64,000 bases of DNA from Chloroflexota bacterium. GTDB lineage: Bacteria > Chloroflexota > Anaerolineae > Anaerolineales > UBA11579. The stretch covers positions 186,001-250,000 of the forward strand of contig JACPVG010000029.1 of the NCBI GenBank assembly GCA_016191875.1, given 5' to 3'. The notes under the pieces were generated by a model. That model was given only the letters and a program-made list of their open reading frames with translations, did not search any database and was not told the DNA's origin. Every line of letters begins with the position of its first letter. Position 1 is the first letter of the stretch. This document shows positions 36,780-57,789 of the stretch, piece by piece. Position numbers and translations under genes: made by a program.

Positions 36780-37676
36780 GTGGTCAATCTCCTTGAGAAC
36801 CTGGCTTTCATTTTCGAGCGCCTGACGTGGGTGAGCGTCATCGACATCCTCTTGGTGGCGAGCATCTTCTTCGGCATCCTGGTATTCCTGCGCGATACGC
36901 AGGCGATGGTGCTGTTGCGCGGCGCGCTGCTGCTCATTATCCTGGTGAGTCTGTTAACTGCGTTCATCGATCTTCCGGCATTTGGTTGGCTGATCGCGAA
37001 CACACTCCCGGGGCTTGTTGTGGTCATACCGGTCATTTTTGCCCCTGAAATTCGCCGTGCGCTGGAACGCCTGGGCCGGGCAGGGAATTTCCTGCCGACC
37101 ACGCGCGTACGCGCTCAAACCAACGATGTGATCGAGGCGGTCGTGCGCTCGGCTGCGCGGCTTTCCAATCGCCGGCACGGGGCATTGATCGTCCTGCAGC
37201 GGTTTGACAGCCTTGAGGAGTACGCCAGCACCGGCGTGGCCCTGAACGCCGAGGTCACCTCGGAATTGCTGCTTCAGATTTTCTACCCGAACACGCCTCT
37301 GCACGACGGCGCTGTGGTCATTGGGGGCGACCGTGTATTGGCGGCGGCCTGTGTGATGCCGCTTTCGGCCAGCGGGGTGTTGGCTGTCTCTCCGGAAAGG
37401 AGCATGGGCCTGCGGCATCGGGCGGCGTTGGGATCTTCAGAAGTGAGCGACAGCGTTGCGGTGGTCGTTTCTGAAGAAACTGGTGCGATATCGGTGGCCA
37501 CCGGTGGGCGAATGATTCATCGCCTGGACAACGAGCGTTTGGAAGGCGTTCTGCGTGCGCTGTACCGGCCTCTGGAGCCGGGCCTCAGCCTGGAGCGGGC
37601 GCTCTATCGCTGGCTGCCGGGCCTGATGCCGGACCCTGAGGCTGGTGCACAACCGGCCGGGCAGGTGGAAGAATGA
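36780..37676 (+). CDS. cdaA: diadenylate cyclase (membrane CdaA type)
   Basis: 298 residues. Three transmembrane helices (about 20-37, 42-62 and 68-88) precede the DisA_N cyclase domain. That domain has DGA at 176-178 and RHR at 212-214, the catalytic pair for making c-di-AMP from ATP. The enzyme acts at the inner face of the membrane, usually controlling potassium and wall homeostasis. The GTG start is the only one that keeps all three helices; its ribosome site is weak. It overlaps the YbbR-domain gene by four bases. Confidence 0.95.
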   Translation: MVNLLENLAFIFERLTWVSVIDILLVASIFFGILVFLRDTQAMVLLRGALLLIILVSLLTAFIDLPAFGWLIANTLPGLVVVIPVIFAPEIRRALERLGRAGNFLPTTRVRAQTNDVIEAVVRSAARLSNRRHGALIVLQRFDSLEEYASTGVALNAEVTSELLLQIFYPNTPLHDGAVVIGGDRVLAAACVMPLSASGVLAVSPERSMGLRHRAALGSSEVSDSVAVVVSEETGAISVATGGRMIHRLDNERLEGVLRALYRPLEPGLSLERALYRWLPGLMPDPEAGAQPAGQVEE

Positions 37677-38989
37677 ACGATGCGCTGCGCCTGATCCTGC
37701 GTATCGTCTGGCGGAATCTCGGGACGTTTCTGCTGGCGCTGGCGCTTTCGGTGGCGGTCTGGGTCTCGGCGGTAGTGGCGGATGACCCCAATGTCGAGCG
37801 CCCCCTGCCGCGCTCCCTGACCCTGGAACTCCGTTCGCTCGGGCCCGGTTTGGTCGTGGTCGGTGAAATTCCGGATCAGGTATCGCTGCGGCTGCGCGCG
37901 CCTCAGTCGCTCTGGGATCGGCTGACCACCGAAGCTGGAATCCTGAAGGCCTACCTCGATCTCTCCAGCCTGCAGCCAGGAGAGCACGTTCTGCCGGTGC
38001 TGGTGGATATCGGCATCTCCCCGGTGCAGGTACTCCAAAGGTTGCCCACTGAGGTCGCTCTGACTGTGGAGCGACTTGTGTCATCGACGTTCCCGGTATC
38101 GCTGGAGGTCCAGGGAGAACCGGCGCTTGGTTACGTGCGTGAGCAGATCTCAATGGATAACGAGACGGTCAGCGTGTCCGGCCCCGAATCGCTGCTGACG
38201 CAGGTTGACCGGGTAGTAGGGGTGCTGGAAATCAGCGGAGTCCGGCAGGATGTGATGGCAGTGGTGACGCTACAGGCGCTGAATGGCGACAGCCAGGTGA
38301 TCAGCGGGGTGAGCATCGAACCTGAGGAGGTCTCCGTCGCACAGACCATCCGGCAGGCTGGCGGATATAGAGATTTGGCTGTCAAGGTGGAGACGCTGGG
38401 ACAGTTGTCCAGTGGCTACCGCGTTACCAACATTTCGGTATCGCCGCCGACTGTGACGGTCTTTTCCCAGGACCCGCAGCTCGTGGCGCAAATGCCGGGC
38501 TTCGTAAGCACCCAACCCCTGGACCTAACGGGCGCTGATGATGACATCGAAACCCGGCTGGGCGTGATTCTGCCGGACGGGGTCACGTTGGTGGGCGATG
38601 AACGCAGCGTCCTGGTACAGGTTGGCGTGGCGGCGATAGAAACCAGCATCCAATTCTCCGTGGAAGTAGAAGTGTTGGGGCTTGGGCAGGGATTGGCGGC
38701 CGAAATCTCCCCGCCCACCGTGGACCTTATCCTGTCGGGCCCGCTGCCGGTGCTCGATTCGCTCACGCCGGAGGACGTAAGGGTTTATGCCGACCTGACA
38801 GGTTTGGGCGAGGGGACGCACCTGGTTGAACTTGAAGGCGAGATTCTGCCCACTGGCGTGAGAATCGATTCGCTTACGCCCGCGAACGTAGAAGTGGTAA
38901 TCACTCAGGCCGGTTCTGATACATCCGGTTTGCCCCTGGCTGGCTTAAGCGGCGGGGCAAGTCGCGGCAACCTGATTTGGATCTGGTGA
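37673..38989 (+). CDS. cdaR: YbbR-domain regulator of the diadenylate cyclase
   Basis: 438 residues. One N-terminal transmembrane helix (about 13-35) is followed by about four YbbR repeats on the outer side, each with a VEVQGEPALGY- or VKVETLGQLSSGY-like strand pattern. CdaR proteins bind and tune CdaA. The four-base overlap with cdaA (ATGA) and the following der gene make a cdaA-cdaR-der operon. The Ser/Gly-rich C-terminus after about residue 410 is likely flexible. Confidence 0.9.
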   Translation: MNDALRLILRIVWRNLGTFLLALALSVAVWVSAVVADDPNVERPLPRSLTLELRSLGPGLVVVGEIPDQVSLRLRAPQSLWDRLTTEAGILKAYLDLSSLQPGEHVLPVLVDIGISPVQVLQRLPTEVALTVERLVSSTFPVSLEVQGEPALGYVREQISMDNETVSVSGPESLLTQVDRVVGVLEISGVRQDVMAVVTLQALNGDSQVISGVSIEPEEVSVAQTIRQAGGYRDLAVKVETLGQLSSGYRVTNISVSPPTVTVFSQDPQLVAQMPGFVSTQPLDLTGADDDIETRLGVILPDGVTLVGDERSVLVQVGVAAIETSIQFSVEVEVLGLGQGLAAEISPPTVDLILSGPLPVLDSLTPEDVRVYADLTGLGEGTHLVELEGEILPTGVRIDSLTPANVEVVITQAGSDTSGLPLAGLSGGASRGNLIWIW

Positions 38990-40951: not shown

Positions 40952-40963
40952 TAGGGTGTATTG

Positions 40964-41740
40964 ATGACTGTTGACACCACGCGTCCGCTCTACCAGATCG
41001 TGGCCGACCAAATCCTGCATCGGATTCAGTCCGGTGATTGGGAGGTGAACAGGCGGCTGCCGTCTGAGGCGGAATTGTGCGCCATGTTCGAGGTGGGACG
41101 GAACACTCTGCGGCATGCGTTGAGCGAACTCGTTGACTCGGGAATCCTGAAAACGGTACATGGGGTGGGGACATTCGTCATGGATGGGCGCACCGCCAAG
41201 ACAGCCCAATACCTGTACGGATTCAGCCAGGAAATGCAACTGGCGGGCAAAGCGGTGGTCAGCCGGGTGCTTGAAAGCCAGTTGCTCGAAGCCGATGCTT
41301 CGCTGGCCCGCCGGCTGGAAATCCAATTGGGCGCGCCGGTAATGTTTCTGCACCGCCTGCGAGTCGTCGATGGCGAGCCAACCGCACTTGAACGGGCGTA
41401 TCTGCCGGAGGCGCATTTTCCGGGTTTGCTGGATCTGGATTTTTCATCCCATTCGCTGTACCACATCCTGGCCGAACGCTACGGCTCACGCCCGGAGCGC
41501 GCCGAGCAGGAGATCGAAGCCGCCCTGGCGACGGATAGGGTGGCAGAGATGCTCCAACTCACGCCGCCGGCGGTGGTGTTGGTCGTTCATCGCGTGACGC
41601 GCCGGGCGGATGGGGCGGTGATAGAATTTGTGGAATCCGAACTGCGGGCTGACCGCTTCCGCTTCTTTGCTGAATTGAAACTCAGGGCCGGGTTGGATCC
41701 GGTCGTCTTCCAACGGCTGCCGGTGAGCGCGGCCCGCTGA
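40964..41740 (+). CDS. GntR/HutC-family transcriptional regulator of the BMC operon
   Basis: 258 residues. The winged helix at residues 5-72 has the GntR signature RLPSEAELCAMFEVGRNTLRHAL. The UTRA ligand-binding domain (about 90-250) ends in VEFVESELRADRFRF. HutC-type regulators usually sense sugar phosphates or similar pathway ligands; deoxyribose-5-phosphate would fit here but is inference. It is the first gene after the promoter and operator, so it is probably autoregulated. AGGG lies seven bases before the ATG. Confidence 0.9.
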   Translation: MTVDTTRPLYQIVADQILHRIQSGDWEVNRRLPSEAELCAMFEVGRNTLRHALSELVDSGILKTVHGVGTFVMDGRTAKTAQYLYGFSQEMQLAGKAVVSRVLESQLLEADASLARRLEIQLGAPVMFLHRLRVVDGEPTALERAYLPEAHFPGLLDLDFSSHSLYHILAERYGSRPERAEQEIEAALATDRVAEMLQLTPPAVVLVVHRVTRRADGAVIEFVESELRADRFRFFAELKLRAGLDPVVFQRLPVSAAR

Positions 41741-41750
41741 AAGGAATGTT

Positions 41751-42317
41751 GTGCGCATCCCCTCTGATGCAGAATTGCAGGTCATCGTCAAGGAGGTCCT
41801 GGCGCGAACCGCGAGAGGCGAACCAAGACCTTCTCAGCCCGGGCAGCCGCAAGCAGACCCCGGCCGGGTGGTGGCCCTCGGGGCTGACCATGGTGGATAT
41901 CCGATGAAACAGTCGCTGAAGGAAATGTTGGAAGGCAAGGGGTTTGCAGTCATTGACTGCGGCACAAACAGCGTCGAGGCAGTGGACTATCCAGATTATG
42001 CCCTGGCGGTGGCACGCGAGGTTGCGGCTGGCAGGGCTTGGCGCGGCATCATGGTGGACGGCGCCGGAATTGGCTCCTGCATGGCGGCCAACAAAGTCCC
42101 GGGCGTGCGCGCCGCCATGTGCTACGACCACGCCACGGCGCTGAACGCGCGCGAACATAACGACGCCAATGTGCTGACGCTGGGCGCGGGGATGATCGGT
42201 ATGGCCCTGGCCCAGCAGATCTCTGAGACATTCCTGGCGACTGAATTCGGCGGCGGGCGGCATGCCCGCCGGGTGGACAAGATTATGGCGATAGAGAACG
42301 AGCAGGCGGCGAGATGA
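41751..42317 (+). CDS. rpiB: RpiB/LacAB-like sugar-phosphate isomerase with N-terminal BMC targeting helix
   Basis: 188 residues. Residues 1-20 ([16 protein letters not shown]) form an amphipathic helix, then a Pro-rich linker to about 38, the typical form of a cargo encapsulation peptide. The isomerase core has [36 protein letters not shown] and [11 protein letters not shown]. The catalytic Cys of E. coli-type RpiB (ICGTG) is replaced by Asp (VDGAG), with a Cys five residues later ([10 protein letters not shown]). The GTG start has AAGGA upstream. It overlaps deoC by four bases. Confidence 0.88.
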
Positions 42318-43243
42318 CTATGGAAACAAAAACTGTGGATGTCGAGAAACTGGTCGAAATTGTGACCCGCGAAGTACTTTTGGCCCTGGCCGAGCGCGAA
42401 CAGACGCACGTTCATGGCGACCATTGCATGGAGGAGTGCGCCGAAGGCATCTGTGTGCGGACATGCTTCGACCGGGTTGGACGCGTGGTAAGCGCAGGGG
42501 CCTCGCGCCTGACTTCGTCACTAGGCGGCATCCCGGATGACCCCGGTATCGCACCCATGATCGATCACACCCTGCTCAAGCCGGACGCCACGGCCGACCA
42601 GATCGCCCAATTATGCTTCGAGGCCCGTAAATATGGATTTGCTTCGGTGTGCGTGAACCCCGCGTTCGTCAAGTTGTGCGCCGACCTGCTGAAAGGCACG
42701 CCGGTCAAAGTATGTACGGTCATCGGCTTCCCATTGGGGGCGTCCGCCACGGACGTGAAGGTCTTTGAGACGGAGACCGCATTGCGGGATGGCGCAACGG
42801 AAATCGATATGGTCATCAATATCGGCGCGCTGAAAGCACGCGACCACGACCCGGTGGCGCGAGATATCAATGGCGTCGTGCGGGCAGCGCATGCGGCCGG
42901 CGCGCTGGTGAAAGTCATCATCGAGACTTCTCTGCTCACCAATGAAGAGAAGGTCGCCGCCTGCCTGCTGGCCAAAGAGGCTGGCGCGGATTATGTAAAG
43001 ACGAGCACCGGCTTTGCCGGAGGCGGCGCGACGGTGGAGGACGTGGCTCTGATGCGGCGGGTGGTTGGCCCGAAGATGGGCGTGAAGGCCAGCGGCGGCG
43101 TGAAGGATTACGATGATGCCCAAAGCCTAATCGCTGCCGGCGCGACCCGCATTGGCGCCAGCGCCGGTATCAAGATCGCCCAGGGCGAGAAAGATGCCCT
43201 TGCCGAAGTGAAGAACCCCGCCCCCGTAGCAGAAGCGTATTGA
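42314..43243 (+). CDS. deoC: deoxyribose-phosphate aldolase with N-terminal targeting helix and Cys/His segment
   Basis: 309 residues, about 70 more than usual. It splits 2-deoxyribose-5-phosphate into acetaldehyde and glyceraldehyde-3-phosphate. The Schiff-base lysine is K229 (YVKTSTGF), with K258 and D165 as helpers. The extra N-terminus has an amphipathic helix (about 9-26, [15 protein letters not shown]) like cargo targeting peptides. A Cys/His cluster follows: H32, H34, H37, C38, C42, C47, C51. The toxic acetaldehyde product explains encapsulation. Confidence 0.95.
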
Positions 43244-43258
43244 GCGGAAGCGACCAAT

Positions 43259-43552
43259 ATGCAGATCGCCAGAGTCGTCGGCACAACCATCTCCACCGTG
43301 AAAGATCCGCGTGTGCGCGGCCGGAAGCTATTACTCTGCCAGCCCACGGATGTAACCGGGAAAGAGGTATTGGGCAGGAGTTTCGCCGCCGTGGACGTGG
43401 TGGATGCCGGGACGGGCGACCTGGTGCTGGTATGCCACGGCTCCGCCGCCCGCCAGACGCCCCAGACCAAAGACGCGCCCGTGGATTCGGTGGTGATGGC
43501 AGTGTTGGATTCGATGGAACTGGACGGCGCGACCGTCTTTCGGAAAGAATAG
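43259..43552 (+). CDS. BMC-P pentameric shell protein (EutN/CcmL family), copy 1
   Basis: 97 residues. The EutN/CcmL fold starts with MQIARVVGTTISTVKDPRVRGRKLLL and continues with DAGTGDLVLVCHGSAARQT and a C-terminal VDSVVMAVLDS strand. Pentamers of this family cap the vertices of the icosahedral shell. It starts 15 bases after deoC and is followed three bases later by a second, similar copy. Confidence 0.92.
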   Translation: MQIARVVGTTISTVKDPRVRGRKLLLCQPTDVTGKEVLGRSFAAVDVVDAGTGDLVLVCHGSAARQTPQTKDAPVDSVVMAVLDSMELDGATVFRKE

Positions 43553-43555
43553 GTC

Positions 43556-43846
43556 ATGCAGATCGCCAAAGTCATCGGCACAACGGTTGCCACCATCAAG
43601 GACGTAAAACTGACCGGGCGCAAACTTCTCATCCTCCGTCCGACGGATGAAGCCGGGGCGCTGCACGGCAAGGCTTACGTGGCGGTGGATACGCTGGACG
43701 CCGGCATCGGTGACCTGGTGCTTACGGCGCACGGTTCCAGCGGGCGGATGACGGATATTACCGCCGGAAGCCCGGTCGACGCGGTCATCATGGCGGTCAT
43801 CGACCATCTGGAAGTGGGCGGCAAAGTAACCTACCGGAAGGAGTGA
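43556..43846 (+). CDS. BMC-P pentameric shell protein, copy 2
   Basis: 96 residues, clearly homologous to copy 1 (MQIAKVIGTTVATIKDVKLTGRKLL, then DAGIGDLVLTAHGSSGR). The pair probably arose by tandem duplication and then diverged. The sequences differ most in the pore-facing loop after DAG. It would form another vertex type or mixed pentamers with copy 1. Confidence 0.92.
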   Translation: MQIAKVIGTTVATIKDVKLTGRKLLILRPTDEAGALHGKAYVAVDTLDAGIGDLVLTAHGSSGRMTDITAGSPVDAVIMAVIDHLEVGGKVTYRKE

Positions 43847-43849
43847 GCC

Positions 43850-45325
43850 ATGACCGAACTTGATAAGGATCTGCGCTCGATTCAGCAAGCCCGCCAGATG
43901 GTGGAAAAGGCCCGCGCGGCGCAACTGGTGTGGGCCAAAGCCACCCAGCAGCAGATCGATAAGGTCTGCGAAGCGATGGCGCAAGCGGCCTTTGGGGCGG
44001 CCGAGCGACTGGGGAGAATGGCCGCTGAAGAGACTGGCTATGGCGTCCCGGAGCACAAGAAGCTCAAGAACGAATTCGGCTCCATGAACATCTGGCGCAG
44101 CATCAAGGACACAAAAACCGTGGGCGTGGTGCGCCACGACCCCGCCAACAGGATCTACGAGATCGCCTGGCCGATGGGCGTTGTGGCGGCGCTTACTCCC
44201 AGCACCAACCCTACCAGCACGGTGATGAACAAGACTCTGATCTCGGTCAAGGCCGGCAACGCGGTTATCGTTGCGCCACATCCTTCGGCGGTGAACTGCT
44301 GCGGCGAGACCTCGAAGGTCATGGCGGCCGCTGCCGTCCAAGCGGGCGCGCCGGAAGGGCTGGTGCAATGCATGTCCGAGGTCAGTCTGCCCGGCACCCA
44401 GGAACTGATGCGCCACCGCTACACTGCCGTCATCCTGGCGACGGGCGGCTCCGACATGGTGAAAGCCGCCCACTCCGTCGGCAAGCCGGCCTATGGCGTG
44501 GGGCCGGGCAACGTACCGGCGTACGTCGACCGCAGCGCAGACCTGGAGCGGGCCGCGCGCTATGTCGTTGCCAGCAAGGCGTTTGACTACTCCGTCATCT
44601 GTGCTACCGAGCAGGCGATTGTGGCCGATAAGCCCATCGCCCGGAGGCTCAAGGAATTGGTTGTGGCTGAGGGCGCGTATTTCGTTACCCCAGGGGAAGC
44701 CGATTTGCTGCGCAAGGCATTGTTCTTTGAGAATGGGGCCATCAACCCGCAATCGGTCGGCAAGTCGCCGCAGTATCTGGCGGCCATGGCAGGTTTCAAG
44801 GCGCCGGATGCCGCCCGCATCCTGGTTGTGGAACTTGACCGGGTGGGGCGCGAAGAGCCGCTCTCGCGCGAGAAGCTGACCACGGTATTGGGCTGGTACG
44901 AAGCAGACGGCTGGGAGGCGGGCTGCGATATCTGCCTGGCTCTGATCCATTTTGGCGGACGCGGCCACAGCCTGGTCATCCACGCCGAAGACCAGGACGT
45001 GATTATGCGCTTCGGGCTGGAAAAGCCCGTCTTCCGCATTGGGGTCAACACGATGGGCACGCTGGGCATGATCGGCCTGACGACGGGGGTGGCGCCCTCG
45101 CTCACGCTGGGATCGGGCGGGGTAGGCGGTTCGATCACGGGCGACAACATCACCGTTCAGCACCTGTTCAATATCAAACGGATGGCCTATGAGACCACGC
45201 CGCCGCCAGATGCGGCGCTGCGGCCGGGATTGGTGCCTGCAGGCAACCTCCACGGCCCCAGCCCGGCAGAACTTGAGGACATGGTACGCCAGATCGTCAG
45301 TGAAACTCTCGCGGGCCGCCCGTGA
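43850..45325 (+). CDS. CoA-acylating aldehyde dehydrogenase with C-terminal targeting helix
   Basis: 491 residues of the PduP/EutE type. The catalytic Cys is C251 (YSVICATEQA), and the nucleotide site includes TPSTNPTST and GVGPGNVPAYV. It should turn acetaldehyde from DeoC into acetyl-CoA with NAD+. The last 21 residues (about 471-488, PAELEDMVRQIVSETLAG), after a Pro/Gly linker, form an amphipathic helix like the N-terminal helices of RpiB and DeoC here. It starts three bases after the second pentamer gene. Confidence 0.95.
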   Translation: MTELDKDLRSIQQARQMVEKARAAQLVWAKATQQQIDKVCEAMAQAAFGAAERLGRMAAEETGYGVPEHKKLKNEFGSMNIWRSIKDTKTVGVVRHDPANRIYEIAWPMGVVAALTPSTNPTSTVMNKTLISVKAGNAVIVAPHPSAVNCCGETSKVMAAAAVQAGAPEGLVQCMSEVSLPGTQELMRHRYTAVILATGGSDMVKAAHSVGKPAYGVGPGNVPAYVDRSADLERAARYVVASKAFDYSVICATEQAIVADKPIARRLKELVVAEGAYFVTPGEADLLRKALFFENGAINPQSVGKSPQYLAAMAGFKAPDAARILVVELDRVGREEPLSREKLTTVLGWYEADGWEAGCDICLALIHFGGRGHSLVIHAEDQDVIMRFGLEKPVFRIGVNTMGTLGMIGLTTGVAPSLTLGSGGVGGSITGDNITVQHLFNIKRMAYETTPPPDAALRPGLVPAGNLHGPSPAELEDMVRQIVSETLAGRP

Positions 45326-45410
45326 GGATCAGAAGAGCAGTGTGTCGGCGGCCGCATTCCGGCCGTTAGATCGATGCTGAACACAAAACCCGATTCAAAG
45401 GAGCAAAAGC

Positions 45411-45737
45411 ATGGCACAGGATCCAAATTTCATCGCTCTGGGGATGGTTGAAACCCGGGGCCTGATCGGGGCCGTTGAGGCGGCTGACGCAATGGTTAAA
45501 GCCGCCAACGTTGTCTTGATCGGTTCAGAGTATGTGGGCGGAGGCTTCGTCACTGTGATGGTGCGTGGCGACGTCGGCGCCGTCAAGGCTGCCACAGATG
45601 CCGGGGCCGCGGCCGCCAAGCGCATTGGCGAGCTGGTATCGGTGCACGTCATCCCGCGCCCGCACGAGAATGTGGAAATGATCCTGCCGCAGAGCGCCAA
45701 GGGCGGCTTCGGCGGACGTTCCGGCGAGAAGAAATAA
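45411..45737 (+). CDS. BMC-H hexameric shell protein
   Basis: 108 residues with the Pfam BMC fold: [26 protein letters not shown] at the start, [28 protein letters not shown] in the middle and the usual [14 protein letters not shown] end. It is the only single-domain hexamer in the locus and should tile the shell facets. AGGAG lies seven bases before the ATG. The 85-base gap before it is the largest inside the operon. Confidence 0.97.
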
Positions 45738-45740
45738 TCC

Positions 45741-46592
45741 GTGCTGGTTCAAGCCGGATTGACTGAGCACCTCGCGCAGGCTGCCGCAGTCATCCGCTGG
45801 CTGGGCGACGCTGAGCCGCCTCCGCTTGGTTACCCGCCTCAAGGCGAACTACAAGTGGGGGTGGACCTCGGAACGGCCTACCTGACGGTAATCGTCGCCG
45901 ATTCGTGGGGGATGCCGCTGGCGGGCGAGTACCAGTATGCCGAGGTGGCGCGCGATGGGCTGGTGGTTGACTTCGTCGGGGCGGTCGACCGCCTGAAAGC
46001 CTGTAAGGCCCGCCTGGAGCGGCGGCTGGGGCGGGACCTCGAACACGCTCACAGCGGCTATCCGCCCGGCGTCGGACCGGCGGAAGTGCGAACCACGGCC
46101 AATGTCCTCGAGGCGGCCGGGTTCCGGTGCAGCGGCCTGACCGATGAGCCAACGGCAGCCAATGCTGTCCTGCAACTGCACCGCGGGGCGGTAGTGGACG
46201 TGGGCGGCGGCACAACGGGCATTGCCGTCGTGCAGGATGGCAGGGTTGTGTACACAGCCGACGAGGCCACCGGCGGCACGCACTTTTCGTTGGTGATCGC
46301 CGGCGCTCTGGATATCGATTACGAGCGTGCCGAAAGCCTGAAGACTGACCCTGCGCGGCAACCTGAGTTGATGTCAACCGTCAGGCCCGTCATGGAAAAG
46401 GTGGCCAGCATCGTAACGCGGCACATCTCGGCCTTTGACGTGCCAAGCATCACGCTGGTGGGCGGCAGCAGCGCCTTCCTGGGCATGGCAACGGTTGTTG
46501 AGGAGTACACGGGCATCCCGACACAAGTGCCTGATCATCCGGCCTTCATCACCCCGCTGGGGATGGCCCTGAAAGACGCTCCAAGCGCATAA
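45741..46592 (+). CDS. eutJ: EutJ-like Hsp70/actin-fold ATPase
   Basis: 283 residues. ATPase motifs are VGVDLGTAYLTVIVAD (phosphate 1), DEPTAANAVLQL and VVDVGGGTTGIAVV (phosphate 2), and TLVGGSSAFLGM (adenosine). It is shorter than DnaK, with no substrate domain, as for EutJ. In other BMC loci the role is thought to be chaperoning or reactivation, without direct proof. The GTG start follows the BMC-H stop by three bases. Confidence 0.88.
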   Translation: MLVQAGLTEHLAQAAAVIRWLGDAEPPPLGYPPQGELQVGVDLGTAYLTVIVADSWGMPLAGEYQYAEVARDGLVVDFVGAVDRLKACKARLERRLGRDLEHAHSGYPPGVGPAEVRTTANVLEAAGFRCSGLTDEPTAANAVLQLHRGAVVDVGGGTTGIAVVQDGRVVYTADEATGGTHFSLVIAGALDIDYERAESLKTDPARQPELMSTVRPVMEKVASIVTRHISAFDVPSITLVGGSSAFLGMATVVEEYTGIPTQVPDHPAFITPLGMALKDAPSA

Positions 46593-46602
46593 GGAGACTT
46601 GT

Positions 46603-47229
46603 ATGGCAGATAATTTCTCGCTCCGCTGCTACTGTTACCTGGATCGCATGCAGCCCCAGTACGCGGCGTTTGTGGGTACGGTCACGCAGGGCGATCTCCC
46701 CACGGAAGGGATGGCGGCTCTGTATGTGGAAATGGCTCCCGGCAATGAGGCCTTCCGTATGGTGGATATCGCCGTGAAGAGCACGGAGGCCAAACCCGGC
46801 GCGCAATTGGTGGAACGCGAATTCGGCATGTTCGAAGTGCATTCCCACAAACAGTCGGACGTGTTGGAGGCCGGCCGCATCGTGCTGGACCGTCTGGGGT
46901 TGAAGGAAAGCGACCGCATCAAACCTGAAATCGCTTCGACCCAGCTGATCACCAATGTCGACCCGTATCAGGCGCAATTGCTCAATCGTTTTCGTCGTGG
47001 AAGCCTGCTCGTGCCGGGCGAAACCCTGTTGGTGGTCGAGGTGGCGCCGGCTGCCTATATCAACCTGGCGGTGAACGAAGCCGAGAAGAAAGCCACCATC
47101 AAGCTTCTGCATGTATCCTCCGTCGGGCGCTTTGGGCGCATGTGGCTTTCCGGCAGTGAAGCGGAGATGGTCACGGCCCGGGATGCCGCCATTCAGGCGA
47201 TGGAGAACGTGGAAGGCGTGAAAGGGTGA
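46603..47229 (+). CDS. BMC-T tandem-domain shell protein
   Basis: 208 residues that read as two divergent BMC domains. The first has AALYVEMAPGNEAFRMVDIAVKSTEAKPG and FGMFEVHSHKQSDVLEAGRIVLDRL. The second has TLLVVEVAPAAYINLAVNEAEKKATIKLL and GRMWLSGSEAEMVTARDAAIQAM. Trimers of such proteins form pseudohexamers that often gate larger molecules. AAGGAG precedes the ATG. The domains are far from the PduT and EutL sequences I recall. Confidence 0.85.
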   Translation: MADNFSLRCYCYLDRMQPQYAAFVGTVTQGDLPTEGMAALYVEMAPGNEAFRMVDIAVKSTEAKPGAQLVEREFGMFEVHSHKQSDVLEAGRIVLDRLGLKESDRIKPEIASTQLITNVDPYQAQLLNRFRRGSLLVPGETLLVVEVAPAAYINLAVNEAEKKATIKLLHVSSVGRFGRMWLSGSEAEMVTARDAAIQAMENVEGVKG

Positions 47230-47242
47230 TTGGAGGGAGCCG

Positions 47243-47602
47243 ATGCCGAAGACATTCTATACCGAACGGGATATCGAAGACCTCAAGACCAGGGGCGTGA
47301 CAAGTCTGGTCCTGAGCGATGATGTGGTTATCACCGATCAGGCGCGCGAGCGCGCCATGAAACTCGGGTTTGAACTCATGCGCGAACATGACCAGCCTAT
47401 GGCGGCTCCGGTGCGGCCTTACATTGCGAGCCAACCCTCGCCGGCGGCTTCGCCGCCCCGCCCGGCTGCCCCGTCAGGCGCGGCAACAGAGCTGGAAAAA
47501 CGCGTGGTCCAAGCTGTGCAGGCCCGGCTGGGCAGTTCGGTGGACGCCAAGCTGTTGGAGACGATCGTCAAGCGGGTGTTGAACACGGTGGGCAGAGGCT
47601 GA
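47243..47602 (+). CDS. small BMC-associated protein with C-terminal targeting-like helix
   Basis: 119 residues. Residues 5-48 form a compact domain (YTERDIEDLKTRGVTSLVLSDDV, then TDQARERAMKLGFELM). A Pro/Ala-rich linker spans about 52-80 and two amphipathic helices end the protein (TELEKRVVQAVQARL and DAKLLETIVKRVLNTVG). The last helix matches the pattern seen in RpiB, DeoC and the dehydrogenase. I recognise the N-terminal pattern from other BMC loci only vaguely and give no function. It may be a scaffold or cargo adaptor. Confidence 0.7.
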   Translation: MPKTFYTERDIEDLKTRGVTSLVLSDDVVITDQARERAMKLGFELMREHDQPMAAPVRPYIASQPSPAASPPRPAAPSGAATELEKRVVQAVQARLGSSVDAKLLETIVKRVLNTVGRG

Positions 47603-47603
47603 T

Positions 47604-47924
47604 ATGCTCTTTGGGCGGGTACGCGGGACGGCCATCGCCACAATCAAATACCCTGACATGCGCGGGATGAAACTCTTGGTTGTGGAGCCATTGGACCGCC
47701 GCCTCGAACCTGCCGGGCCGCTGCAAGTGGCTGTGGATGTTGTGCAGGCCGGGATTGGGGACCTGTGCGTGATGGTGCGCTCGCGTGAGGCTTCGCTGGC
47801 GATGGAACTCCATAAGTTCGTCCCGGTGGATCTGGCGCTGGTTGGAATCGTAGATGAGTTGAACGTCCGGCCGGATGGCGAATTTGACTTTCGGCTCCGG
47901 CCGGGGCATGTCAGGTACACCTGA
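47604..47924 (+). CDS. BMC-P pentameric shell protein, copy 3
   Basis: 106 residues. It begins MLFGRVRGTAIATIKYPDMRGMKLLVVEPLD and continues DVVQAGIGDLCVMVRSREAS, matching EutN/CcmL. It is more divergent than copies 1 and 2 and has a longer, basic C-terminus. The stop codon overlaps the start of the M50 protease gene by one base (TGATG). Confidence 0.9.
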   Translation: MLFGRVRGTAIATIKYPDMRGMKLLVVEPLDRRLEPAGPLQVAVDVVQAGIGDLCVMVRSREASLAMELHKFVPVDLALVGIVDELNVRPDGEFDFRLRPGHVRYT

Positions 47925-49036
47925 TGGATAATGCATTTCGTCTCTTCCGCTTTCGGGGAATTGACGTGCTGGTCCACGTCACATTTCCCCTCATCCTCAT
48001 CTGGGCGGGTCTGGCTTACGGCGTGTTTGAAGGGCGCGGCGTGGGGGGAGCGGTATTTGGCGTGCTGGTCACGCTGCTCCTGTTTGGCATCGTCCTGCTG
48101 CATGAATTTGGGCACAGCCTGGCCGCGCAGGCGTTTGGCGTGGAGGTGAAACGCATCATCCTCCTGCCATTGGGCGGCGTGGCGCAATTGGGGCGCATCC
48201 CCGAAAACCCATTACAAGAATTCGTGATTGCCATTGCCGGCCCGGCGGTCAATTTTCTGCTGGCGATTCTGATGATATGGGCGCTGCCTCTGGAATCGGG
48301 CGGTCTGAGCCTCCAGACTCTGCGAAACCTCCTCGGCAATTCAAGCGGGCTGAATGCCGCGGCAGTCCTCAATTACCTTTTCGTTTCCAATCTTTTCCTG
48401 GCAATTTTCAACCTTGCACCCGCCTTTCCCCTGGACGGCGGCCGCGTCTTGCGCGCCTTGCTGGCTGCGCAAATGGGCTATGTGCGCGCCACCCGCATCG
48501 CGGTCGGCATAGGGCAGTCGCTGGCCTGGGCGTTGGGCTTATGGGGGTTCATTTCCGGCAATCTTTTCGGGATCCTGATTGCAGTCTTCATCTATGTGGG
48601 CGCCCAGCAGGAAGGCCAAATGATCATGGTCAGGTCGGCGCTTGGCAATCTGACCGTCAATGAAGCCTATTCGCGCCGGGCGGTCGCCGTGACGCCGCAT
48701 CAAACGGTTGGCGAGGTCGCCCAGATCGTACTACAGTCATCTCAAAGCAATTTTGCGGTCTGTGAAGGCAGCAAAGTGGTCGGCATGCTTTCTTACCCGC
48801 GCCTGGTGCGCGCGCTCGAGTCGGATGGGAAAAATCAGCTCATCGGGACAGTGATGCATCCTGACGTGGTAGGGGTGCATCCCGAAGACAGACTCTTTGT
48901 CGTGCAGCAGAAGATGCTGGAGGCCAATCAGGAGGCTTTCCCGGTCATCGCTGACGGGGCATATCTTGGCCTGATTACACGGGGAGATCTCGGCGAGGCC
49001 GTGCGGTTATTGGCGGCCCTCAAGGAGGCCGGATGA
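47924..49036 (+). CDS. M50 site-2 protease with C-terminal CBS pair, inside the BMC operon
   Basis: 370 residues. Membrane helices carry the zinc motif HEFGH (60-64) and the NLAPAFPLDGGR motif with ligand D171. About six transmembrane helices span 15-230. Two CBS modules (about 240-365) follow and may bind adenine nucleotides. Enzymes of this class cut substrates within the membrane. Its start overlaps the upstream pentamer stop by one base and its stop overlaps the next pentamer gene by four. Coupling on both sides says it belongs to the BMC operon. No substrate is evident. Confidence 0.93.
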   Translation: MDNAFRLFRFRGIDVLVHVTFPLILIWAGLAYGVFEGRGVGGAVFGVLVTLLLFGIVLLHEFGHSLAAQAFGVEVKRIILLPLGGVAQLGRIPENPLQEFVIAIAGPAVNFLLAILMIWALPLESGGLSLQTLRNLLGNSSGLNAAAVLNYLFVSNLFLAIFNLAPAFPLDGGRVLRALLAAQMGYVRATRIAVGIGQSLAWALGLWGFISGNLFGILIAVFIYVGAQQEGQMIMVRSALGNLTVNEAYSRRAVAVTPHQTVGEVAQIVLQSSQSNFAVCEGSKVVGMLSYPRLVRALESDGKNQLIGTVMHPDVVGVHPEDRLFVVQQKMLEANQEAFPVIADGAYLGLITRGDLGEAVRLLAALKEAG

Positions 49037-49317
49037 TCCTTGGCAAAGTGGTCGGGACAGTCGTGGCCACGATTTCCCACCCGCATTTCAAGAACCGACG
49101 GTTGCTGGTGGTTCAGCCGCTGACCCTCGCAGGCGACCCTCCTGAGGGAGACTTCATCGCCCTGGATACTTCCCAGGCAGGAATCGGGGATACAGTGCTG
49201 GTCAACCGGGAGGGCAATGGCGCCCGCGGCGTCCTGAACAACCCGGATGGTTGCGTGATCTCTATCATTGTAGGGATTGTGGATTCGCTCTACCTGGAAA
49301 TGGCGGGGAGTGGCTGA
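49033..49317 (+). CDS. BMC-P pentameric shell protein, copy 4
   Basis: 94 residues with MILGKVVGTVVATISHPHFKNRRLLVVQPL and DTSQAGIGDTVLVNREGNGARGV, the EutN/CcmL pattern. It is the last gene of the BMC operon, overlapping the protease gene by four bases. A palindrome begins 14 bases after its stop. Confidence 0.9.
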   Translation: MILGKVVGTVVATISHPHFKNRRLLVVQPLTLAGDPPEGDFIALDTSQAGIGDTVLVNREGNGARGVLNNPDGCVISIIVGIVDSLYLEMAGSG

Positions 49318-49330
49318 CCAAGCGGGCTCC

Positions 49331-49363
49331 AACCTTGCGAAGGTTTGAAACCTTCGCAAGGTT
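49331..49363. repeat. 33-bp palindrome at the end of the BMC operon
   Basis: AACCTTGCGAAGGTTT (49331-49346), one G, then the exact reverse complement (49348-49363). No T-run follows, so it is not a standard terminator, though the stem could still stop or stabilise the BMC transcript. The centre resembles that of the palindrome at 27242-27279. Confidence 0.85.
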
Positions 49364-49454
49364 CAGTGCGGAATCCATTCAACTTTCAATCCTGCCCCAC
49401 GACCTTGGATACTCCCAAACTGCGTGGCTGCGGCGGGCTGAATGGTTTGGGGTG

Positions 49455-49460
49455 TATAAT
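49455..49460 (+). promoter_or_regulatory. -10 box for signal peptidase gene
   Basis: TATAAT; the transcript would start near 49467, just upstream of the AAAGGA ribosome site at about 49473-49478. Confidence 0.55.
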
Positions 49461-49485
49461 GCCCGGCTGTGGAAAGGAACAAGTT

Positions 49486-50097
49486 GTGTCCCAATTTACC
49501 CCGCTGATCAGCCCTGTCCAGGAAGAGCCAGTACCGGAAGTCGCCCGGGGCGCAAGCTGGAAGGCGTTCTTCGTCGAAACGCTCCAGACCATCGTCCTGG
49601 CGCTGGTCCTCTTCGTAGGCATCAATGCGTTCACTGCCCGCATCCGGGTGGATGGTCACAGTATGGAGCCGTCGTTTCACCACAACGACTACGTTATTGT
49701 CTGGCGGCTGGCGTACCGCGTGGGTGAAATCGAGCGCGGCGACGTGGTTGTATTCCCATATCCCAACAATCCGGAGGAGGACTACATCAAGCGCGTCGTG
49801 GGCCTGCCCGGCGATGTGGTGGCGATACAGGAAGGCCAGTTGCTCGTCAATGGCGTTGCTGTAGATGAACCCTATCTGGCGGAACCCATGTGGCGCAACT
49901 TTCCCGAGGTCGTCGTTCCGGATGGGTCGGTGTTTGTGATGGGCGATAACCGCAACGATTCATCTGACTCGAGACGCTGGGGGCCGCTGTCGATCGAAGA
50001 CATCCTGGGTAAGGCGGTCTTCGTTTATTGGCCGCCGGGGGACATTAAACTCGTTCCACACATCTGGCCGGAGGCCTCAGCGGGCGGCTCCGATTGA
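49486..50097 (+). CDS. lepB: signal peptidase I
   Basis: 203 residues from the GTG at 49486, chosen because AAAGGA and a TATAAT box lie directly upstream. One transmembrane helix (about 31-47) is followed by the S26 catalytic domain. The serine is in GHSMEPSF, the lysine in YIKRVVGLPGD, and the C-terminal box is GDNRNDSSDSRRWGP. It removes signal peptides from exported proteins on the outer side of the membrane. Several exported proteins in this window would be clients. Confidence 0.95.
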   Translation: MSQFTPLISPVQEEPVPEVARGASWKAFFVETLQTIVLALVLFVGINAFTARIRVDGHSMEPSFHHNDYVIVWRLAYRVGEIERGDVVVFPYPNNPEEDYIKRVVGLPGDVVAIQEGQLLVNGVAVDEPYLAEPMWRNFPEVVVPDGSVFVMGDNRNDSSDSRRWGPLSIEDILGKAVFVYWPPGDIKLVPHIWPEASAGGSD

Positions 50098-51045: not shown

Positions 51046-51106
51046 GGACCGGGCAAAATCCGTCCAGCCTCCGAGAAGGCGGCGACCCCGTCTTGGAATG
51101 TGAGTG

Positions 51107-51112
51107 TACAAT
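51107..51112 (+). promoter_or_regulatory. -10 box of a leaderless promoter (ECF sigma gene)
   Basis: TACAAT six bases before the ATG at 51119. Confidence 0.55.
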
Positions 51113-51118
51113 TGCTTC

Positions 51119-51691
51119 ATGGAAGGGAAAGGCTCCAACGAGGCAGAGCTCCTGGCAAAGGCGCAAGCGGGGGATACGCAGGCATTTGGCGAACTCTATG
51201 ACCGCTACTTTGACGAAATCTACCGGTTCCTGAACGCGCAGGTCTGGCGAAGCGAAGACGCCGAAGATCTGGCGATCGAGGCGTTTACCCGCGCCTGGGA
51301 GTATCTACCTCGCTACCGCGACCGGGGCCACTCGTTTTCGGCATTCCTGTACAGCGTTGCTCGCAACGCGCTCATTGATCACTACCGGCGGCGCAAAACC
51401 CGCGCCGGACTTGAAGTCGAAGCCGATGATGCCTTCCCGGACACCGCCGATCTGCCGGAAGACCAGATCCTCCTTCAGCGCCAACGACGGGAACTTATCA
51501 ACGCGTTGAGCGACCTGCCTCCGGACTATCGCCAGGTGCTGGTATTGCGCTTCATCAACGAGGAACCTCTTGAGGATATCGCCCGGATCTTGAGGCGCTC
51601 GGAAGGGGCAGTGCGCGTACTTCAGCATCGCGCCCTGAAGGCGCTCAGAAAGATACTGGAAGCGACCTCTGCGCAAGAGTTGGTGGAGTAA
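51119..51691 (+). CDS. ECF RNA polymerase sigma factor
   Basis: 190 residues. Region 2 has FGELYDRYFDEIYRFLNAQV, the acidic EDAEDLAIEAFTRAW helix and FSAFLYSVARNALIDHYRRR. Region 4 has LPPDYRQVLVLRFINEEPLEDIARIL and a helix-turn-helix SEGAVRVLQHRALKALRK. It is related to the sigma gene at 61545. The start at 51119 is chosen because TACAAT lies six bases upstream. The DUF5667 gene follows and is the likely partner. Confidence 0.9.
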   Translation: MEGKGSNEAELLAKAQAGDTQAFGELYDRYFDEIYRFLNAQVWRSEDAEDLAIEAFTRAWEYLPRYRDRGHSFSAFLYSVARNALIDHYRRRKTRAGLEVEADDAFPDTADLPEDQILLQRQRRELINALSDLPPDYRQVLVLRFINEEPLEDIARILRRSEGAVRVLQHRALKALRKILEATSAQELVE

Positions 51692-51743
51692 CAATTGCAG
51701 ACTTTATCCGTTGACCAGATTGAAGCCGCAAGGTGAGTTTATT

Positions 51744-52745
51744 ATGAAGGAATTCTTCTCGTCATTATTCGGACTGAGCGCGAACCGACCAAGGGAGCGC
51801 GATGATTTTGCCCGGAAGTGGCTGCAAAGCCGCCGGGCTGCGCTGGATCCCGATTCTCGCCGAAAGGCAACTGTGCGGCGGCGGCTGTTGAGCCAGTTAA
51901 AACCGCGCTCCCAAGGCATCGGACGCGGGTCGCGGCCGGTTGGGTTTCGACTGGGAATGGCGGGCGTCGCCGTGGTTGTGTTGCTCTTATCCATGTTTGG
52001 GATAGTGGATGCTTCAGCCGCCGCGCTGCCGGGCGACGACCTTTTCCCGATCAAATTGCTGGTCGAAGACCTGCGAATGGCAGCCGCCTTAACGCCCGAG
52101 GCGCGCAGCGATGTGCTGGCGGAACGAATCGATGCCCGCCTGCTGGAGATCGTGCAGTTGCAGAGCCGGAGCGATGAAGCCGGCGTGGCCGAGGGCCTCT
52201 CTTTGCTGAAGTCGCTCCTGCTTCAATCTGAAGCAATCCCTGCGTCCCTGGCGCTGGAAGCCAGCCTGGCACATAGCCAGGAAGTGCTGGTGAATGTCCT
52301 GTCAGACCTTACGCCCCAAGCCCAAGGGGAGCTTGAAGGCGTCCTTCAGGCCCTGCATTCTGCCAGTGAAAAGGCTGGTATGCCGCCATTTTCAGATGAA
52401 CCTGAGCCAAGCGCCCTGCCGCCTGAACGACCAACGACGAATCCCACCCCGACGCTGACCGCTGAAGAGAGCGCGGCGGAAGAAACCCCAGAGATTCCGG
52501 GTGCAGCCACAGATACCGCGGTTGCCAGCGTTACGCCCACCTCGCCGGGCAATTCCGGCGGCCCGCCGTCCGGGACGCCCGGTGCGGGAAATGGGAATTC
52601 CGATTATGCCCACGGACGGGAGGATGAGCATCCGGGGCGAGGGAATTCCGGCGGCGATGATGAAGATGACAGTACCAATGGCACCCCTCCGGGGCATGGA
52701 AAAGACAAGAAAAATGAGGATAAAATAAAGGGTGGTAAGGATTAG
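51744..52745 (+). CDS. DUF5667-like membrane protein, probable anti-sigma partner
   Basis: 333 residues. The N-terminal cytosolic part (about 75 residues) is very basic. A transmembrane helix at about 78-95 (AGVAVVVLLLSMFGIV) precedes the DUF5667 motif AALPGDDLFPIKLLVEDLRMAAALTPEARSDVL. The C-terminal 120 residues are low-complexity Pro/Thr/Ser then Gly/Asp/Lys-rich and should lie outside. AGGTGAG is seven bases before the ATG. Position behind an ECF gene suggests signalling. Confidence 0.75.
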   Translation: MKEFFSSLFGLSANRPRERDDFARKWLQSRRAALDPDSRRKATVRRRLLSQLKPRSQGIGRGSRPVGFRLGMAGVAVVVLLLSMFGIVDASAAALPGDDLFPIKLLVEDLRMAAALTPEARSDVLAERIDARLLEIVQLQSRSDEAGVAEGLSLLKSLLLQSEAIPASLALEASLAHSQEVLVNVLSDLTPQAQGELEGVLQALHSASEKAGMPPFSDEPEPSALPPERPTTNPTPTLTAEESAAEETPEIPGAATDTAVASVTPTSPGNSGGPPSGTPGAGNGNSDYAHGREDEHPGRGNSGGDDEDDSTNGTPPGHGKDKKNEDKIKGGKD

Positions 52746-55009: not shown

Positions 55010-56293
55010 TCATTGCATAAGCTCGATGATGGGCGGGACTTCGAAGGTGCGATCCTCGTCGTAGGTGACCTTGAACGAGCCGCTACCGTTGCCTTCCACG
55101 CGCTTGCTGATGACCTGCCCGACCACGCTGGTCTCGTCGGAACTGGAGCCGCCGCCGCGGGCCTGGACGGTGGAGTTGATGGCGTAGATCAGCCCGAAGA
55201 TGGCATCGCCGCCGTTGCCGCGCACTTCGATGCTGCTGGAGTTGCTGCGGCTGACAAAGATGGCGATGCCCTTGTACGTGCAACTGGCCGTGCGGTCGCC
55301 ATCCGTGCCGAGGCAGTTGTCGGCGGTGGGGGCTGAAATCGTCATGCCGGCGTTGCCGGTAAAGCGCAGGCCGCCGTCGATGAAGTAGAGTACGACTCCA
55401 TCGCCGGAAAGTCCGCTGTTGCCGCTGAGAGCGAGATCGCCGCTGATGCAATAAATCCCAGGGTCAAGCGTTCCGCCGTTTCCCAGGTCGCTGCCATTCA
55501 CGTTGCCCGGAGTGAACACTCCTCCGCTCTCCGTGCTGCTGGAGGTGCACTGAGGTTCTTCCAGGAAACTGAGCGGGTCGTCTATCGGTTTTCCATTGTT
55601 CTGGCCGGTGTTGATCGGGTTGGGTGAGACCATCCCATTCCCTGAATAGGTGTAGTTGCCAGTGCTGTTGATGCCGGTATCCGAGGTGATGCCGTAGCCG
55701 TTGTTGCCGGGGTCGAGGGCGCAACTGCTACCGCTGGTCTCGGTGGTATTAAGCCAGATGCCGCCGCCGAAGGCCTGTACGCCGCCGCTGTTGCCGCCGC
55801 CGGTGATCTCGATCGTATTGTCCCCGTCCTCCGCGCAGTTGCTCAACGTGACGATGGCGTTGCCGGTGACCGGCGAGTTGCGACCGTAGGCGCGGGCCAC
55901 CGCTTCGACCTGGTTGGCGAGCTGGCCGGACCACACAAATTGAATGAGCGAGGTATCTGTGAGGGCCCAGATCTTGACCTGGATGTATTCATCGTCCCCG
56001 GCGTAGGGGCCATCGGCGGGCGGGTAGTTGACCGTGACGGTGTTGGTGGTGCCGTCATTATTGAAGCCGTTCACCGCCGCAAGCGCGAGGGCATCTGCGA
56101 CCTCATCGCCTTCGTTGATGACGGCCAGGGCGGCCGCCAGGGCGGCGTTATCGGCGGCGTTCTGGGCGTCGCGCCGGTCGGCGTAGACACGACCGCCATC
56201 GATGGCCAGGGCGGTGAAGCCCAGCAAGGCGACCATAACAGCCATGATCAAGACTATCGCCTGGCCACGCTCGTAACCACTTGTGGAATGCAT
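55010..56293 (-). CDS. TadG-like surface protein, copy A
   Basis: 427 residues. The N-terminal Flp/TadG anchor (RGQAIVLIMAVMVALLGFTALAIDGGRVYADRR) is followed by the usual AQNAADNAALAAA helix. The long outer part is rich in Gly, Asn and Ser and continues with beta-helix-like repeats ending in DRTFEVPPIIELMQ. It would be displayed on the cell surface with the TadE proteins. AGGAA lies upstream of the ATG at 56293. Its neighbour at 56506 is a near-twin of the same length. Confidence 0.82.
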   Translation of the reverse strand: MHSTSGYERGQAIVLIMAVMVALLGFTALAIDGGRVYADRRDAQNAADNAALAAALAVINEGDEVADALALAAVNGFNNDGTTNTVTVNYPPADGPYAGDDEYIQVKIWALTDTSLIQFVWSGQLANQVEAVARAYGRNSPVTGNAIVTLSNCAEDGDNTIEITGGGNSGGVQAFGGGIWLNTTETSGSSCALDPGNNGYGITSDTGINSTGNYTYSGNGMVSPNPINTGQNNGKPIDDPLSFLEEPQCTSSSTESGGVFTPGNVNGSDLGNGGTLDPGIYCISGDLALSGNSGLSGDGVVLYFIDGGLRFTGNAGMTISAPTADNCLGTDGDRTASCTYKGIAIFVSRSNSSSIEVRGNGGDAIFGLIYAINSTVQARGGGSSSDETSVVGQVISKRVEGNGSGSFKVTYDEDRTFEVPPIIELMQ

Positions 56294-56437
56294 AGGATAA
56301 ATTCCTTTCTCCAATAAATCGTTTATCCCGCTTCTTGCCCCTGGCCCGTCCCTGCAAATGTGGAATGAATTATCCCATAGTTGCCTTTTTGCGCGGCCGG
56401 GCAAATGGCACTTAAGTACTAGTCGCCTGGTGATAGG

Positions 56438-56476
56438 CAAAAATCGAGGCGGCCAATGCCACCTGGCCGCCTCGAT
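56438..56476 (-). terminator. intrinsic terminator of TadG-like copy B
   Basis: Twelve-base stem (56443-56454 with 56465-56476). On the minus strand it is followed by TTTTT. Confidence 0.85.
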
Positions 56477-56505
56477 AGGAATTTCCGAACTCCTTTGGTT
56501 GTTGT

Positions 56506-57789
56506 CTATTGTTGCAGTTCGATGATGGGCGGGACTTCGAAGGTGCGATCCTCGTCGTAGGTAACCTTGAACGAGCCGCTGCCGTTGCCTTCCACGCGTT
56601 TGCTGATGATCTGCCCGACCACGTTGGTTTCATCGCTGCTGGAGCCGCCGCCGCGCGCCTGGACAGTGGAGTTGATGGCGTAGATGAGGCCGAAGACGGC
56701 GTCTCCGCCGTTGCCGCGCACCTCGATGCTGCTGGAATTGCTGCGGCTGACGAAAATGGCAATGCCTTTGTACGTGCAGGAGGCGGTGCGGTCGCCCTCG
56801 GTGCCGAGGCAGTTGGAGTCAGTGGGGGCCGAAATCGTCATGCCGGCGTTGCCGGTAAAGCGCAACCCGCCGTCGATGAAGTACAACACAACGCCCTCGC
56901 CGGAGAGCGCATTGTTGCCGCTGACGTCTACATCACCGGAGATGCAGTAGATTCCCGGTTGCAGTACCCCACCATTGCTCAGGTCGCTGCCGTTGATGTT
57001 GCCGGGGGTGAAGTTGCCACCGCTCTCTGTGCTACTGGAGGTGCACTGAGGTTCTTCCAGGAAACTGAGCGGGTCGTCTATCGGTTTTCCGTTGTTCTGG
57101 CCGGTGTTGATGGGTGTGGGAGACAGGTTGGTCTCGCCGGAGTAAGAATAGTTGCCCGTGCTATTGATGCCTGTGTCCGATGTGACGCCGTAGCCGGTAT
57201 TGCCGGGGTCAATCGCGCAACCGCTGCCGCTCTCGGTGGTATTGATCCAGATGCCACCGCCATAGGCCTGCACGCCGCCGCTGTTGCCGCCGCCGGTAAT
57301 CTCAATTGTGTTGCCGCCATCCACGGCGCAATTGCCGAGCGTGACGATGGCATTGCCGCTGACCGGCGAGTTGCGGCCATAGGCGCGGGCCACGGCCTCA
57401 ACCTGGTTGGCGAGCTGGTCAGGCCAGACGAACTGGATGAGCGACGTGTCCGTAACGGCCCAGATCTTGACCTGCACGTATTCATCGTCGCCGGCGTAAG
57501 GGCCATCGGTGGGGGGATAGTAGACCAAAACGGTGTTTGTCGTTCCGTCGTTATCGAAACCATTGATGTCGGCGATGGAGAGCGCCGCGGTCGTGTGGTT
57601 GCCTTCGTTGATGATGGCCAGGGCGGCCGCCAGGGCGGCGTTATCGGCAGCGTTCTGGGCGTCGCGGCGGTCAGCATACACCCGGCCGCCATCCACCGCC
57701 AGCGCGGTGAATCCCAAGAGGGCGACCATGACGGCCATGATCAGGACAACCACCTGGCCGCGTTCGTACGTGTGGATTGTATTTGTCAT
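56506..57789 (-). CDS. TadG-like surface protein, copy B
   Basis: 427 residues, the same length as copy A and nearly identical to it over long blocks. The N-terminal anchor is RGQVVVLIMAVMVALLGFTALAVDGG. Differences cluster at about residues 60-80 and in the central Asn/Ser-rich part. The C-terminal 150 residues differ at only a few positions. AGGTG precedes the ATG at 57789. The two copies have separate terminators. Confidence 0.82.
   Translation of the reverse strand: MTNTIHTYERGQVVVLIMAVMVALLGFTALAVDGGRVYADRRDAQNAADNAALAAALAIINEGNHTTAALSIADINGFDNDGTTNTVLVYYPPTDGPYAGDDEYVQVKIWAVTDTSLIQFVWPDQLANQVEAVARAYGRNSPVSGNAIVTLGNCAVDGGNTIEITGGGNSGGVQAYGGGIWINTTESGSGCAIDPGNTGYGVTSDTGINSTGNYSYSGETNLSPTPINTGQNNGKPIDDPLSFLEEPQCTSSSTESGGNFTPGNINGSDLSNGGVLQPGIYCISGDVDVSGNNALSGEGVVLYFIDGGLRFTGNAGMTISAPTDSNCLGTEGDRTASCTYKGIAIFVSRSNSSSIEVRGNGGDAVFGLIYAINSTVQARGGGSSSDETNVVGQIISKRVEGNGSGSFKVTYDEDRTFEVPPIIELQQ

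Follow-up and report, generated by a model that had tools for sequence, protein, structure and literature searches.

Known site-2 proteases and microcompartment loci

The closest described relatives of the protease considered here are the Methanocaldococcus site-2 protease mjS2P (MJ0392, PDB 3b4r), SpoIVFB (8vjl) and the CBS tandem of an Archaeoglobus site-2 protease (5g5r/5g5x); the match to this group extends over the transmembrane (TM) core and the CBS tandem. SpoIVFB cleaves membrane or membrane-associated substrates, and its CBS module is cytosolic (PMC11486902). A connection between a site-2 protease and a bacterial microcompartment (BMC) has been reported from Synechocystis, in which Sll0528 interacts with RbcR and is tied through it to the expression of ccmK2K1LMN, and in which its deletion lowers the transcripts of carboxysome genes (PMC12014562). 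However, that compartment is a carboxysome and not a metabolosome, and no CBS domain is mentioned for Sll0528 in that paper. A peptidase gene has also been noted in BMC loci of the glycyl-radical-enzyme (GRM) type, a different type of BMC; its authors suggested a regulatory role for it, with no peptidase family named in the passage concerned (PMC4207490). In the open-access literature, we found no metabolic BMC operon described as containing a site-2 protease gene.

The host operon

The DNA analysed, referred to as the window, is a stretch of 64,000 nucleotides from a Chloroflexota genome (contig JACPVG010000029.1). An operon occupies positions 40961-49317 of its plus strand. It begins with a GntR/UTRA regulator (40961-41740), the first gene of the conserved cluster, followed by an RpiB-type isomerase (PF02502, 41751-42317), a DeoC deoxyribose-phosphate aldolase (PF01791, 42314-43243), the EutN/CcmL pentamers E1 (43259-43552) and E2 (43556-43846), a CoA-acylating aldehyde dehydrogenase (43850-45325), a BMC-H shell hexamer (45411-45737), a EutJ-family protein (45741-46592), a CcmP-like BMC-T shell trimer (46603-47229; below the Pfam cut-off, 3e-64 to CcmP structures) and a conserved 119-aa protein, u119 (47243-47602), which occurs in relatives and weakly matches the EutQ N-terminus. 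The operon ends with pentamer E3 (47604-47924, 106 aa), the protease gene and pentamer E4 (49033-49317, 94 aa). The short C-terminus of u119 is amphipathic-looking and resembles an encapsulation peptide by eye, and u119 is kept across most syntenic loci.

The enzyme pair DeoC (PF01791) and RpiB (PF02502) is common to all subtypes of sugar-phosphate utilisation (SPU) loci, of which SPU6 is the one reported from Anaerolineae (PMC8217296). In the window, a PF01791 aldolase and a PF02502 RpiB stand together with shell genes, as expected of an SPU locus. The operon also has the acylating aldehyde dehydrogenase, BMC-H, CcmP-like BMC-T and EutN genes of such loci (PMC8217296), but differs from them in the M50-CBS gene between two EutN genes, which was not found in the other order-level loci examined.

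The protease gene and its product

The open reading frame at positions 47924-49036 (plus strand) is intact, with an ATG start and a TGA stop, and encodes 370 aa. It had been annotated from the sequence as an M50 site-2 protease with CBS domains, and Pfam, the motifs and the fold model all agree with this assignment. Peptidase_M50 was matched over aa 50-202 (4e-26), and two C-terminal stretches were matched to CBS (1e-14). The zinc-binding and catalytic motif HEFGH (aa 60-64) is encoded at 48101-48115. The third zinc ligand, D171, is encoded at 48434-48436 and lies in PLDGGR, which aligns with PAFPMDGGR of mjS2P. Alignments of 20 and of 9 sequences show no variation among relatives at the zinc ligands (H60, H64 and D171) or at the catalytic E61. 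The tandem CBS domains span about aa 243-361 (48650-49006), and the second retains a GLITRGD-type motif.

The best solved relative by sequence is 3b4r (2e-40), followed in the PDB search by SpoIVFB (8vjl) and then by the Archaeoglobus CBS tandem (5g5r). An AlphaFold model built with 20 homologues as input has a mean pLDDT of 91, and a Foldseek search with this model returned the same structures as the sequence search, plus 5g5x (3b4r: E 1e-16, TMt 0.85). Judged by every sequence and fold feature tested, the protein is thus predicted to be a plain CBS-containing site-2 protease of the mjS2P/SpoIVFB group, having in common with it the HExxH and DGG zinc ligands, the TM core fold and the C-terminal CBS domains; it differs from these relatives in that its gene sits inside a BMC operon. 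The first-pass annotation had proposed that the CBS pair could sense adenine nucleotides. The CBS tandem of the Archaeoglobus protease was solved with nucleotide bound and the second repeat here keeps the GLITRGD-type motif, making such sensing plausible by analogy.

By hydropathy, the protease is a polytopic membrane protein and the only one in the operon; the other operon proteins appear soluble, with no convincing TM segment in the shell and cargo proteins. The protease has no BMC or EutN fold in Pfam, and its termini are no longer than those of its non-BMC relatives, which leaves no extension to act as an encapsulation peptide. By these features it does not qualify as a shell or cargo component of a BMC; as first remarked, an intramembrane protease is not known as either. 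Nor is the gene conserved in related BMC loci outside the genus, as would be expected of such a component.

Junctions with the flanking pentamer genes

Both genes that flank the protease gene belong to EutN_CcmL (Pfam, 1e-21 and 1e-20). The stop of E3 and the start of the protease overlap by 1 nt in TGATG, and the protease stop and the E4 start overlap by 4 nt in ATGA, exactly as had been described. A Shine-Dalgarno-like AAGGAGG of E4 can be read in the last protease codons (49022-49028, plus strand). Other gaps in the operon range from -4 to 15 nt, except for one of 85 nt; since nearly all operon genes are equally packed, the tight junctions of the protease gene are weak evidence of functional integration. 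Terminator-like sites about the protease and pentamer genes occur at chance level (6, against a mean of 5.0 in shuffled sequences), and no flanking direct repeats that would represent insertion scars were recognised around the protease gene. Directly after E4, at 49331-49363, there is a perfect 16-nt inverted repeat with a 1-nt spacer. It occurs nowhere else in the genome, is missing from the congener and, having no T-run, is not a standard intrinsic terminator.

Conservation within the genus

Three genomes of the genus were compared, that of the window and two others, G392 and G391. In G392, the same protease gene occupies the same slot, and its product shares 65% identity with the window protein. 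There the gap between E3 and the protease gene is 1 nt, and the ATGA overlap with E4 is as in the window. The recurrence in this congener indicates that the arrangement is more than an accident of one genome. In both genomes, the C-terminus of the protease is shortened relative to other M50-CBS proteins. The two genes differ with dN 0.28 and dS about 2.2 (saturated), and a dN of this size with dS near saturation shows that the protease is under purifying selection. Own-genome searches identified the protease gene as the sole M50-CBS gene of the window genome, with two other M50 genes present, and G392 has no second M50-CBS copy either.

The genome behind the window is a draft of 36 contigs with 91% completeness, so that a faulty assembly or gene call, or an insert in decay, might be considered. 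However, the arrangement is repeated in an independent draft of another species, the motifs are intact and dN/dS is low, so that we regard this explanation as practically dismissed.

The third genome, G391, has neither EutN nor a full M50-CBS match. A joint loss of the BMC and the M50 gene was considered as evidence of linkage and rejected: the flanking Der and LepB genes are also missing from this draft, the region is probably missing as a whole, and the absence is therefore uninformative. The claim that the protease is built into the BMC operon thus holds for the genus, in both genomes that have the region (2/2), but not for sugar-phosphate BMC loci in general.

Distribution of the M50-CBS gene and of the pentamer pair

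The survey covered one class, probably Anaerolineae given that SPU6 is reported from there, and 66 loci of a GTDB contig collection. M50-CBS proteins (E 1e-20) were found in 196 of 298 class genomes, and EutN in 109. The M50-CBS gene is present in 72/109 genomes with EutN and 124/189 genomes without it (odds ratio 1.02, p=1), indicating that the two are distributed independently in the class. A protein scan of the GTDB contig collection yielded these 66 loci with M50-CBS relatives, and none of them carries a EutN gene (0/66). In the maximum-likelihood tree, the two proteins of the genus form a pair (100/100), which groups (94/91) with genes from families f63 and f66 of the order and f48 of the class. 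The M50-CBS genes of these three families stand among unrelated neighbours, and neither EutN nor any other operon gene was detected in the stretches examined. The surroundings of the nearest M50 relatives were compared for a clue to the substrate: no neighbour is common to them, and only two f63 genomes share a neighbour pair.

An M50-CBS HMM run on 96 EutN-bearing loci matched only in the locus of the congener and in none of 94 further loci, and among 298 class and 101 order genomes an M50-CBS gene at a BMC locus was likewise found in the congener only. The E3-E4 pair was recognised in 32 other loci, many of them of the same family (L264 and L305 are one locus and counted once). The spacing of the pair is -1 to 75 nt in these 32 loci and 1111 and 1113 nt in the two genomes of the genus. 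An M50-CBS gene between EutN genes, which the first-pass annotation suggested looking for in related BMC loci, is thus absent outside the genus from all 32 loci with the pentamer pair. The same annotation held that absence from related BMC loci, combined with other positions in sister genomes, would tell against integration; this is largely what is seen outside the genus, but not within it. In locus L248 (genome G383, contig C25, 9077-10272), the BMC-T gene and the 119-aa gene are separated by a pair of neighbouring genes for membrane proteins that match no Pfam family. This insertion, in a genome of the same family, is a second, independent lineage-specific insertion in the operon.

It had also been proposed that the protease brings a shell component to maturity or ties compartments to the membrane, and its location between two pentamer genes is the sole point in favour of this. 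In 32 loci that lack the protease gene the shell genes are nevertheless conserved, the tail of E3 looks similar whether or not a protease gene adjoins it, and, as noted above, the shell and cargo proteins have no convincing TM segment. Both forms of the proposal find no support here, and we consider such a role highly improbable.

Genes around the operon

Downstream of the operon lies a signal peptidase I gene (lepB, 49345-50097); in many genomes of the family such a gene comes after E4, which makes it a conserved neighbour of the operon. The start of its long ORF is doubtful, and translation probably begins close to 49459-49490. Further downstream, at 2.1-3.7 kb from the protease gene, come an ECF sigma factor gene (51104-51691) and a gene for a DUF5667-like protein with one TM segment (51711-52745), the latter at about 2.7 kb, past LepB and an Rce1-like protease. 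This one-TM protein, a possible anti-sigma factor, diverges fast between the congeners (35%).

As an alternative, the protease could serve the sigma factor and the anti-sigma-like protein, a pair of the kind classically controlled by regulated intramembrane proteolysis, with the BMC operon being simply its landing place. Consistent with this, the one-TM protein gene follows the sigma gene after 19 nt, the Rce1-like protein in between is a second membrane protease, and the order E4-LepB-CPBP-sigma is common to the window genome and G392. However, LepB, CPBP and the two strongest promoter-like sites (50103 and 50262, downstream of LepB) separate the sigma pair from the BMC operon, the DUF5667 match does not reach the cut-off of Pfam, the one-TM protein is only 35% conserved between the congeners, and either of the two other M50 genes in the genome could do the job. 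We consider this function quite unlikely.

Genes for a CdaA-type diadenylate cyclase and YbbR (36780-38989) precede the protease gene by about 10 kb. Some proteins use CBS domains as c-di-AMP receptors, and it may be speculated that c-di-AMP is a possible ligand of the protease CBS pair. On the minus strand at 55010-57789, there are two tandem near-duplicate Tad/TadG-like secreted proteins, adjoined by plus-strand TadE-like proteins, one of them with PKD/Ig repeats.

Origin and possible role of the protease gene

The novelty of the locus is one of arrangement only: it is a variant of a BMC operon with a site-2 protease gene, seen in one genus so far. The simplest history would be one insertion, in which a member of the class-wide M50-CBS lineage entered between the last two pentamer genes of the SPU operon in the ancestor of the genus. 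We favour the reading, with a probability of about 0.62, that the gene was inserted once in this ancestor and that its product is a co-expressed lodger, not a part of the shell, the cargo or the assembly machinery. From these data we infer a single insertion, co-transcription, proteolytic activity, nucleotide sensing and a substrate outside the operon. The gene would have gained a translationally coupled position, with a TGATG or near-coupled start and an ATGA end, and the protease would be made whenever the compartment operon is on. Located in the membrane, it would probably cleave a substrate encoded outside the operon, and the CBS pair on the cytosolic side may set its activity by way of an adenine nucleotide. 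The conserved slot, the ATGA junction and the shortened C-terminus at 35% divergence, together with the sole copy, count against a lodger, as a tolerated insert could drift or move.

Alternatively, the protease may be a compartment regulator specific to the genus, whose CBS pair would sense a nucleotide state altered by the pathway and which would process or bind a membrane-associated regulator, with feedback exerted, for example, through the GntR/UTRA protein at 40961. The slot, the overlap and the purifying selection in both congeners argue for this, as does the sole M50-CBS copy, and the nucleotide-bound CBS tandem of a close site-2 protease (5g5x) is consistent with it. In addition, the effect of Sll0528, which acts with RbcR on carboxysome genes, provides a precedent for a BMC-regulating site-2 protease (PMC12014562), and SpoIVFB, also a site-2 protease with CBS domains, acts on a sigma factor precursor (PMC11486902). 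Sll0528 and the peptidase of the GRM-type loci (PMC4207490) keep a regulatory reading alive. However, the pentamer pair and the operon exist without the protease in 32 other loci, M50-CBS and EutN are not statistically linked, and the GntR regulator has no TM-like segment by hydropathy. The position in two congeners may also be inherited synteny only, because the order of LepB, CPBP and the sigma gene is shared as well. A regulator of this kind therefore seems rather unlikely, and the more specific version, in which a site-2 protease with a nucleotide-sensing CBS pair was recruited in the genus as a dedicated, co-expressed BMC regulator that couples energy or CoA state to membrane-held gene control, is to be regarded as unlikely.

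If the protease regulates the compartment, it would offer a testable membrane link for the control of metabolosomes. If it does not, as in the reading of a co-expressed lodger, the locus would be a clean example of how BMC operons gain unrelated genes while their core is kept, and a warning against inferring function from tight gene packing alone.
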